Origin: a virus
Length of the DNA stretch: 20,234 nucleotides
IMG/VR virus record: IMGVR_UViG_3300001798_000107
Span: 1-20,234 of that record
Reading direction: 5' to 3' (one strand)
How positions within the stretch are numbered: position 1 is the first letter of the stretch; every line of letters starts with the position of its first letter. Of the stretch, positions 2,706 to 8,740 are shown piece after piece. A program made the position numbers and the translations under genes. A model generated the notes under the pieces. The model saw only the letters and a program-made list of their open reading frames with translations, was not told the origin of the DNA and ran no database searches.

Positions 2706-3194
2706 TTACGCGGCTTTTTTGGTTTTGACCGCTGCGGTTTTCGGGAGGACGCTTGCCATAATCGCAGCGAACGTCTCCTTATCTGTGTCCCGGATGTGCA
2801 GAAGATACTTTGTTACCTGCTCAGACATTGGAATGACTGGAGCGGATTTTTTCGCTGCTTCTGCTTCTGCTTCTTTCGCTTTTTCAGCAGCTCGTTTTTC
2901 GTCTCTCATGCGCTTTGCTTCAGTCAAAATGCTTCCCGTAAAATCGGGATTAGCTTTGAATACGCTTTTTGCTTGGGAAATTGCCGACTTGCCGGACGAA
3001 TTAAGCGCCTTGTTATTTTGTATGGCCTGCAATTCAGCGAGAGCATTTAAGTCGCCTGATTGAAGCAATGCAAAGCTATTGTTTGCGATAATAGCAACCG
3101 CGCCTTTTTTTACCGAGTCGGCAGAAGCTAGATTTTCAAAAGCCGTATTAATAGCTTTCAAATTAGATTTTACGTCGATTTTTTTAGCAGTCAT
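2706..3194 (-). CDS. Hypothetical lysine/alanine-rich phage protein, 162 aa
   Basis: The start is the ATG at 3194 (MTAKKIDVKSN), preceded by GGAG with an 8-base spacer; the frame is open upstream but without a start signal. The protein is mainly helical. Residues about 92-116 form a highly charged A/E/K/R segment (KRMRDEKRAAEKAKEAEAEA) that could be a coiled coil, and the C-terminus (KTAAVKTKKAA) is a basic tail of the kind seen in nucleic-acid-binding proteins. Family not recognised. It is the first gene leftward of the control region at 3195-3853, with a promoter at 3356-3384 and two palindromes in its leader, so it is likely a tightly regulated early or control gene. Confidence 0.7.
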   Translation of the reverse strand: MTAKKIDVKSNLKAINTAFENLASADSVKKGAVAIIANNSFALLQSGDLNALAELQAIQNNKALNSSGKSAISQAKSVFKANPDFTGSILTEAKRMRDEKRAAEKAKEAEAEAAKKSAPVIPMSEQVTKYLLHIRDTDKETFAAIMASVLPKTAAVKTKKAA

Positions 3195-3214
3195 GTTTTT
3201 CACTCCATTAAAAA

Positions 3215-3229
3215 GGTTAGACTCTAACC
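3215..3229. promoter_or_regulatory. GGTTAGACTCTAACC palindrome, copy 5
   Basis: A 15-bp perfect palindrome (one central base), about 20 bases upstream of the 3194 start codon and next to its ribosome binding site. A bound protein here could block transcription or translation of that gene. Confidence 0.55.
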
Positions 3230-3327
3230 AGCAGCAGGTTGATTTTAGACATGGTTGTCCCTTGTTCAGGGCGCACCCCGTTATGAAAATCAGACCTACC
3301 TCCGGCCATTGTAAACCTTTCATTTAC

Positions 3328-3348
3328 GTTAATTGACTATCAATTAAC
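3328..3348. promoter_or_regulatory. Palindrome GTTAATTGA-CTA-TCAATTAAC (candidate operator)
   Basis: Two perfect 9-base arms flank a 3-base centre. It lies just downstream of the leftward promoter at 3356-3384, at roughly +1 to +21, the classical place for a repressor operator. Other short palindromes are near: ATTTTAA/TTAAAAT at 3389-3405 and ATTCAATTGAAT at 3416-3427. Confidence 0.45.
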
Positions 3349-3355
3349 TATCCCC

Positions 3356-3384
3356 AATATAGCCTACTGTTAAAAATAAATCAA
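3356..3384 (-). promoter_or_regulatory. Probable leftward sigma70-type promoter
   Basis: On the minus strand -35 TTGATT (3379-3384), a 17-base spacer, and -10 TATATT (3356-3361). Transcription would begin near 3349 and read the 2706-3194 gene after a leader of about 155 bases. Confidence 0.5.
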
Positions 3385-3476
3385 CACAATTTTAACGATT
3401 AAAATAAATAATATAATTCAATTGAATCAATGACTTACATAATAAATATGTATAATAAGGGTACTATGATTTTATT

Positions 3477-3505
3477 TTCACAACTAGGGCGTGTGCTATT
3501 ATAAT
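3477..3505 (+). promoter_or_regulatory. Strong rightward sigma70-type promoter
   Basis: A -35 TTCACA (3477-3482), an exact 17-base spacer and a perfect -10 TATAAT (3500-3505). It is the best promoter match in the window, yet no convincing rightward gene follows before the terminator at 3809-3836. It is divergent from the promoter at 3356-3384. Confidence 0.6.
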
Positions 3506-3557
3506 GTTGGGTCTATTATAAAAAATTTTTGACCGTTTACTCCAGGTTATGGTAATT

Positions 3558-3580
3558 GTCCTGTGTCAAGGACATAGGAC
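3558..3580 (+). other. 10-bp hairpin directly before the tandem repeats
   Basis: GTCCTGTGTC (3558-3567) pairs with GACATAGGAC (3571-3580) over ten positions, one of them G-T, closing a three-base loop AAG. It ends at the exact base where the first 16-bp repeat begins. Confidence 0.5.
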
Positions 3581-3669
3581 GGGCGCCGGCGGTGTCGGGC
3601 GCCGGCGGTGTCGGCGGTGTCGGGCGCCGGCGGTGTCGGGCGCCGGCGGTGTCGGGCGCCGGCGGTGTC
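3581..3669 (+). repeat. Tandem array of a 16-bp GC-rich unit (5 full copies plus a 9-base partial)
   Basis: The unit is GGGCGCCGGCGGTGTC. Identical full copies start at 3581, 3597, 3622, 3638 and 3654; a 9-base partial (GGCGGTGTC) lies at 3613-3621. The array is followed at once by GGGCACCC. The unit contains the overlapping self-complementary hexamers GGCGCC and GCCGGC, so both DNA and RNA could fold or pair between copies. It stands out against AT-rich surroundings and lies in no recognisable gene. Confidence 0.85.
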
Positions 3670-3802
3670 GGGCACCCGTAAGTCGCTATCATCGCTATTA
3701 AAGGTCTAAGTGTTATCCCTTAAGTCCCAAGTAGCCAATTAAAGGATCATATATGAGACGTTTATGCGGAGAAAACGGATCATAATGTCCGCAAAAATGT
3801 CC

Positions 3803-3836
3803 CAAATAAAAACCCGTACCTCGCGGTACGGGTTTT
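3803..3836 (-). terminator. Rho-independent terminator of the leftward replication operon
   Basis: AAAACCCGTACC (3809-3820) and GGTACGGGTTTT (3825-3836) form a 12-bp stem with a TCGC loop. Read leftward, the GC stem is followed by five T and a further T-rich stretch, a good intrinsic terminator placed 18 bases after the stop codon at 3854. Read rightward it has four T, so it may also stop transcripts from the 3477-3505 promoter. Confidence 0.8.
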
Positions 3837-3853: not shown

Positions 3854-3919
3854 CTAGTACTTAGGGGCTTTCGACTTGCCGGGTTTTTTCGAAGCCTTCT
3901 TTTTCTTTGGTGCAGCCAT
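3854..3919 (-). CDS. 21-residue lysine-rich microprotein
   Basis: The ATG at 3919 is preceded by AAGGAG with a 6-base spacer, and that Shine-Dalgarno overlaps the thyA stop codon. The 21-codon frame (MAAPKKKKASKKPGK and on to ...KAPKY) has nine lysines and three prolines, resembling a histone H1-type or basic tail peptide. It is the last gene before the operon terminator. Ribosome binding site, position and strongly non-random composition support a real gene despite its size. It probably binds nucleic acid or another acidic partner; function unknown. Confidence 0.6.
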   Translation of the reverse strand: MAAPKKKKASKKPGKSKAPKY

Positions 3920-3930
3920 TGTAATCTCCT

Positions 3931-4791
3931 TCAGATTGATACTCTTGCCTTGATCGGCGGATGAGAGTGGTAGTTCCCCAGAGTAACATCATCGAATTTA
4001 AAATCAAAGAGGTTTTTGATTTCTTTATTCAGCAGCAGGTCTGGAGGATCGAACAGGTCTCTCTGAAGCTGCTGCTTCGCCTGCTTGATATGGTTGTTGT
4101 AGATGTGAACATCTCCAAAGGTGTGCACGAAGTCCCCGAGCTCGAGGCCTGTTACCTGCGCGACCATGCTGGTCAGCAAGGCGTAGGACGCGATGTTGAA
4201 CGGGACGCCCAGGAACAGGTCGGCGCTTCTTTGATAAAGCTGGCAGGACAGCTTCCCGTTGACGACATAGAACTGGAACAGCGTATGGCACGGGGGAAGC
4301 TTCACCTGCCCTATCTCCATCGGGTTCCACCCGGTTACGATCAGGCGCCGGCAGTCCGGGTTGGTCTTGATCCTCTCCACCACGTTGGCAAGCTGGTCGA
4401 CTCCTTTGATCTTTATGGTGGTGACCTCTTGAACTATCACGTCTCCCCTCTGTCTGATTTCCCTCATCGGAAAGTCTATCGCGCCGAAGTTGCGCCACTG
4501 CTTTCCGTAGACGGGGCCCAGGTCGCCGTTCTCGTCCGCCCATTCGTCCCAGATCCGAACCCCGTTCTCCTGCAGGGTCTTGATGTTTGTGTTTCCAGAA
4601 ATAAACCATAGGAGCTCATGCACGATGGACTTCATATGCATCTTCTTGGTTGTCAGGAGCGGAAAACCTTTCGTCAGGTCACAGCGAAGCTGACGGCCAA
4701 AGACGGAGAGCGTCCCAGTGCCGGTGCGGTCTCCCTTCTGTGCGCCGTTCTCGAGGATGTCTTTCATCAGGTTCAGGTATTGTGTTTCCAT
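3931..4791 (-). CDS. thyA: Thymidylate synthase
   Basis: Converts dUMP to dTMP with methylenetetrahydrofolate, feeding phage DNA synthesis in the cytoplasm. The 286-residue product shows the family signatures in order: [12 protein letters not shown] near the N-terminus, GPVYGKQWR at 92-100, the paired arginines at 148-149 ([12 protein letters not shown]), the active-site cysteine C168 in LPPCHT, and [20 protein letters not shown] at 187-206. N199 in PFN is the residue that selects dUMP; dCMP hydroxymethylases of this fold carry Asp there, so plain thymidylate synthase is the better call. The C-terminus ([10 protein letters not shown]) is intact. It is about 20 residues longer than the 264-residue E. 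coli enzyme. The start ATG overlaps the upstream stop (TAATG), implying translational coupling. Confidence 0.96.
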
Positions 4792-8242: not shown

Positions 8243-8740
8243 CTATTGGATTGAGTCTTGTTTCTCTGCTGGTACAAAGTCGAGGGTCAGTTTAGAAATC
8301 CGGGCTGTGAATTCGTTTCTCTGGTCAGGATTGAGAATGTCACCCATAGCATCGAGGACAGTCTCAATGAAAGTATTCACGTTCTGGATGTAGATCAGTC
8401 TTTCTTTTAGTTCAACAATCTTCTCAAGCAACCCAACTGAGAGCCTGAAATAAGTATTGCGGTCGGCAGCATTGTCGGAAGTTTTCGCAGTCTCTCCATA
8501 AGTTTTCAGTCCTTCATATAGATCGGAGATTTCTTGTTGGAGGTCTTTTTCTCCCATGGGTTTTGAAACGTGGGCATGCGAATCAAAATCATTCACTGGG
8601 CTGGTGCAGGTGAAAAGATCTTTGACCCTCTGGTCATACGGACATTCCGGGTCAGAGAAATACTCTGGGTTATTTTCATATAGATCCATTACCTGCTTTA
8701 AAAGCTGGGTCGGCAGGGGTGGGTAGAAATTTGAAGACAT
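8243..8740 (-). CDS. Hypothetical phage protein, possible small terminase-like packaging protein
   Basis: A 165-residue protein whose ATG at 8740 has ACGGAGA seven bases upstream. It is acidic and mostly helical. The stretch from about 90 to 155 (ADRNTYFRLSVGLLEKIVELKER, then TFIETVLDAMGDILNPDQRNEF) resembles helical regions of proteins found beside phage terminase large subunits. It is encoded divergently, about 100 bases from the large terminase, so a DNA-recognition role in packaging is plausible. No clear helix-turn-helix is visible and it heads the leftward replication operon, so an early function is equally possible. Confidence 0.65.
   Translation of the reverse strand: MSSNFYPPLPTQLLKQVMDLYENNPEYFSDPECPYDQRVKDLFTCTSPVNDFDSHAHVSKPMGEKDLQQEISDLYEGLKTYGETAKTSDNAADRNTYFRLSVGLLEKIVELKERLIYIQNVNTFIETVLDAMGDILNPDQRNEFTARISKLTLDFVPAEKQDSIQ

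Follow-up and report, generated by a model that had tools for sequence, protein, structure and literature searches.

The tandem array at positions 3581-3669 of the window (the whole 20,234-nucleotide stretch of IMG/VR record IMGVR_UViG_3300001798_000107 analyzed here, which is a fragment of a tailed phage) is predicted to adjoin a genome terminus, namely the end of a long direct terminal repeat (DTR) that faces the primase, with the DTR genes on one side and the primase operon on the other. This is the best-supported reading of the locus from its sequence and its relatives, and the position of the array next to a predicted DNA-packaging terminus was the main point missed by a preliminary description of this DNA. 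The existence of the array, the homology of the terminus signal to the signals of relatives, and the enrichment and one-sidedness of tandem repeats at that signal are supported by the data presented below.

As first described, the array contains five perfect 16-bp GC-rich copies of GGGCGCCGGCGGTGTC in non-coding DNA (3581-3596, 3597-3612, 3622-3637, 3638-3653 and 3654-3669, + strand). The 9-nt partial unit reported with them, GGCGGTGTC, does exist, but it separates copy 2 from copy 3 within the array (3613-3621) and is not at the end. The array is not explained by chance: the most frequent 16-mer in any of 50 first-order shuffles of the window had two copies at most, versus the five observed. 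Within the 81-kb contig of the same phage it was the sole strong GC-rich array, and a search for the array in bacterial genomes found none.

The array is situated in a 730-bp non-coding gap between a leftward ORF (2706-3194) and thyA (3931-4791), and the AT-rich setting noted previously was evident on its left flank (35% GC at 3001-3500). A hairpin identified by sequence and folding, TCCTGTGTCAAGGACATAGGA (3559-3579, + strand), directly precedes the array on its 5′ side, and its earlier characterization as "perfectly placed" was fair wording; one of its nine pairs is G-T/G-U, so that it does not form a perfect DNA palindrome. On the primase side of the array is a bidirectional terminator-like stem, AAAACCCGTACC-TCGC-GGTACGGGTTTT (3809-3836), and such a stem follows the repeats in several relatives as well as in the window. 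After thyA and before this terminator, a 21-codon ORF on the - strand (3854-3919) with a strong ribosome-binding site was observed, the product of which would be the very basic peptide MAAPKKKKASKKPGKSKAPKY.

The number of short perfect repeats is easily misjudged from short reads, and the repeats or their number could in principle have resulted from mis-assembly. However, record IMGVR_UViG_3300025536_000001 (81,127 bp, hereafter G001) was 100% identical to the window over the 13.6 kb compared, and its array matched that of the window base for base, the internal partial unit included. Although the two samples are possibly not independent, this agreement of two contigs argues against an artefact, as do the arrays present at the same locus in other family members, and we consider mis-assembly extremely improbable.

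The large terminase and primase of the phage are homologous to those of long-DTR siphophages of the JWF/Lumi/Seuss type and are arranged in the same divergent layout, and the length of G001 fits the unit genome of about 80-85 kb of that type. Relatives identified by TerL and primase were Achromobacter phages JWF and 2-1, Xylophilus phage Lumi, Caulobacter phage Seuss (37-39% identity to the window phage in the two proteins) and Acinetobacter phages, e.g. EAb13, while the closest TerL relatives with sequence reaching the locus were G003 and G005 (52-54% identity). Exact long terminal repeats were present in the five records compared at their ends (JWF, 1466 bp; 2-1, 1542 bp; Lumi, 2298 bp; Seuss, 1748 bp; EAb13, 2177 bp), positioned in all five just past the primase and its neighbors. 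A metagenome contig that looked complete, L139, had no end repeats. The genome ends of Lumi and Seuss had been derived from reads, by PhageTerm and PAUSE, respectively (PMC9959647, PMC4591317).

The primase-side DTR end of JWF, 2-1, Lumi and EAb13 was located 7-22 bp before the 8-mer AAAATTTT, which in Seuss was replaced by GAAATTTT. Within 4 kb, AAAATTTT was found on the primase-downstream side in 17 of 52 loci, versus 5 of 52 on the opposite side, which was the longer one. Alignment of the sites placed a T-tract ~52 bp upstream of the AAAATTTT-type signal in nearly all of them, and in many the T-tract was preceded by AAGG..GTAC. Of 35 relatives, 15 had the combination AAGG..GTA..TTTT at the site, and its occurrences in 1.15 Mb totalled only 20 when both strands were counted. 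Two further candidates were rejected: the 10-mer AAATTTTTGA was too strict to be a universal terminus marker (3 of 51 loci), and a recognition motif common to both genome ends did no better than control windows.

The corresponding signal of the window (3457-3529) lies between the presumed DTR genes and the primase operon. Its upstream element, AAGGGTACTATG-A-TTTT (3457-3475, + strand), is shared with the two nearest relatives, and its downstream element, AAAATTTT (3522-3529, + strand), was recognized by comparison with relatives; in G003 and G005, AAGGGTACTATG-TTTTT is followed some 50-60 bp on by AAATTTT. AAGGGTAC-N2-6-TTTT has a single occurrence in the 81-kb contig, and the composite AAGG..GTA..TTTT..AA(A/T)TTTT is likewise unique there. 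Because the DTR ends of the five relatives are known, the predicted cut, corresponding to the primase-side DTR end, was placed by analogy at about 3499-3503. The array would thus begin about 80 bp past the cut on the primase side, and it starts 59 bp after AAAATTTT. The assignment of the terminus to this site is a prediction that we regard as quite likely to be correct, and the underlying sequence rule predicts, without reads, the packaging cut in siphophages of a large group, most of them uncultured.

Two results count against the assignment: an ungapped core model built from the relatives did not find the window site, and a gapped core model ranked it second (E 0.13, versus 0.013 for a site 17 kb away). 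The higher-scoring site (G001 39090-39171), which falls in a short gap in a leftward gene run and has neither the AAGGGTAC element nor tandem repeats, was rejected as a terminus. A palindrome, CAGAAATTTTTGAAAAATTTTCTG, was observed beside a GTTAGACTCTAAC site (G001 39083-39106; L017 19083-19106); in the terminus model it scores above the window site, and it could represent an operator or leader element.

Transcription offers a different explanation of the region, namely a ~320-nt non-coding RNA that would start on the + strand at the promoter TTCACA-17-TATAAT (3477-3505), run across the array and stop at the terminator at 3809-3836. With 11 of 12 consensus positions matched, this promoter is the best in the first 9 kb, and the stretch folds better than its shuffles (z -6.6). 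The minus strand, however, folds nearly as well (z -6.0), as expected from the terminator stem and the GC-rich repeats; a + strand promoter match of at least 10 was present at only one of 38 sites, the window itself; and an Rfam search of the region gave no match. A non-coding RNA is very unlikely because the promoter is not common to the relatives at this position and the two strands fold about equally, and the RNA sponge suggested in the preliminary description was left unsupported by the same rarity of the strong + strand promoter.

The DTR itself is presumed to extend leftward from the signal. G001 carries a single copy of it, as expected for a collapsed DTR, although this does not constitute proof. 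By analogy with JWF, 2-1 and Lumi, and from the gene layout, the left DTR end is expected in a non-coding AT-rich stretch (1312-2106), and two ORFs on the - strand are presumed to lie inside the DTR: one of 181 aa (2107-2652), for which no homologue was found, and one of 162 aa (2706-3194), for which none was found outside the same phage. A search of the relatives for homologues of these presumed DTR genes likewise detected none, which counts against the terminus reading, and the gene to their left showed weak similarity only (26% over 85 aa).

Other repeated elements were observed in and around the presumed DTR. Five GGGCACC/GGTGCCC sites are clustered in 280 bp at the presumed left DTR end (1822-2100), and a further copy follows the array at 3670; two pairs of these sites form inverted repeats (GGGCACCCTCCCC with GGGGAGGGTGCCC, and CGGGCACCGTCCGTA with TACGGACGGTGCCCG). 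Positions 1839-1898 comprise two 30-bp direct repeats with GGCGAGTTAAA, and G005 has GCGAGTTAAAAT at a comparable place. The 81-kb contig contains 14 copies of the 13-bp palindrome GTTAGANTCTAAC (core TTAGANTCTAA), versus 0.08 expected by chance, located at window positions 224, 1358, 1941, 2477 and 3217 and at nine more positions in G001 as far as window coordinate -13371. All 14 fall within a single 16.6-kb block of leftward genes, of which the presumed DTR forms part, with none elsewhere in the contig, and the palindrome is also present in the near relative G005. These palindromes resemble the operators or stoperators of a phage regulator.

Tandem repeats were found at the signal in many relatives, and almost always on the same side. 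Among 33 non-redundant sites, one of them that of the window, repeats with a TRF score of at least 50 within 260 bp of the signal followed it in 15 and preceded it in one. Other positions in the same loci led to an expectation of 1.2, and 15 was reached in none of 200,000 simulations; with the window omitted, repeats followed the signal in 14 of 32 sites. Sites were picked by the signal and not by repeats, with a few AAAATTTT hits that were far from the expected place or coding dropped by eye, a curation that introduces some selection into the count of 15 of 33. About half of the relatives had no detectable tandem repeats after the signal, and the repeats are thus not obligatory in the family.

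The place of the repeats is conserved and their sequence is not. Units ranged from the 12 bp of ACAACCACCTCG in G005 to 16 bp in the window and in L078 (AGGTCCGAAGAGGCTG) and 32 and 20 bp in Seuss, and even loci with a near-identical flanking core (L174, L178, L179 and L184, and the pair L167/L168) differed in unit and copies. Of the two origins proposed earlier for the exact identity of the copies, conservation of place without conservation of sequence favors recent expansion over strong selection for the exact unit.

The same variability bears on whether the repeats are iterons of a replication origin, bound by a phage replication protein and adjoined by an AT-rich stretch that would serve as the unwinding element. 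Consistent with an origin, AT-rich DNA is found beside the repeats, the primase operon is close by, and the GC-skew minimum of the 81-kb contig is ~2.6 kb off. The conserved element at the locus nevertheless coincides with DTR ends, and an origin is improbable because the repeats vary in sequence and are often absent while the primase is conserved.

We tentatively assign the array to the packaging terminus, with a multi-site docking platform for terminase, renewed by slippage, as its likeliest role, a proposal to which we give slightly less than an even chance. The terminase would recognize AAGGGTAC..TTTT - cut - AAAATTTT at the right DTR end in replicated concatemers, and the repeats, which start ~80 bp past the cut toward the primase, would keep the packaging complex (a ring of small terminase or a partner) in place at the cut. 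With recognition spread over many weak contacts, the array sequence would be free to vary, and array length would change via replication slippage, the presumed generator of the repeats. We infer that packaging proteins may bind the array, and the protein sites suggested in the preliminary description are plausible as a packaging docking zone of this kind. A search for a small terminase with Pfam, PHROGs and PDB profiles gave no informative match. By position only, the candidate is the conserved phrog_30421 protein encoded between primase and TerL (8243-8740, - strand), which is present in 113 loci and has no Pfam or PDB match.

Extended to the whole family, the proposal would combine a conserved cut signal with a hypervariable repeat platform, the sequence of which turns over phage by phage at a fixed place and may mark self DNA and co-evolve with the packaging proteins. 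We view this extension as conceivable but doubtful.

The main rival to docking is neutral slippage where the DNA is cut and copied. The array would then be a by-product of slippage at the terminase nick and during DTR extension synthesis, without function and in the same location as predicted by docking. Staggered nicks at a fixed site, with extension synthesis at these nicks, give rise to the terminal repeat in DTR phages (PMC5557969). The changes in unit sequence, period and copy number from phage to phage, and the lack of an array at about half of the sites, are consistent with such a by-product. The near one-sidedness of the repeats (15 versus 1) argues against it, as does the presence of repeats at the packaging sites of the unrelated phages T7 and SPP1, and we consider a purely neutral origin possible but rather unlikely. 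The recombination hotspot raised in the preliminary description is possible solely in this sense, as slippage where DNA is cut and re-synthesized.

Within the family, Seuss provides a close parallel to the array of the window: at the same locus, with a signal of the AAATTTT type, its 1,748-bp DTR is followed on the same side by tandem repeats that are GC-rich and perfect (CCCGCTCGCGGGTC..., 32 and 20 bp). The unit sequence of Seuss is unrelated to that of the window, and its DTR was predicted from reads, whereas that of the window was inferred by homology. No papers on a conserved signal with a variable repeat layout in the JWF/Seuss group were found in the part of the literature that was covered. 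In the SPP1/SF6 phages, box or direct repeats occur at the packaging-initiation site, where some direct repeats differ between phages beside other features that are conserved, and the DNA-binding domain of the SF6 small terminase has little sequence preference (PMC4737164). These phages differ from the present case in using headful (pac) packaging, in having few and imperfect repeats, and in the location of the site at the small-terminase gene.

T7 likewise has tandem repeats in non-coding DNA on the inner side of its left DTR, the same relative place as predicted for the window; in its sequence, a CCTAAAG array extends 14-180 bp past the end of the 160-bp DTR. T7 is, however, an unrelated podovirus with a short DTR, and its heptamers recur imperfectly at a 13-bp period, in contrast to the exact copies of a 16-bp unit in the window. 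Terminal tandem repeats, already known from T7, thus recur in an unrelated group with fast sequence turnover. With this second group at hand, it can be tested whether these repeats function in docking or are scars left by the cut-and-copy formation of DTRs.
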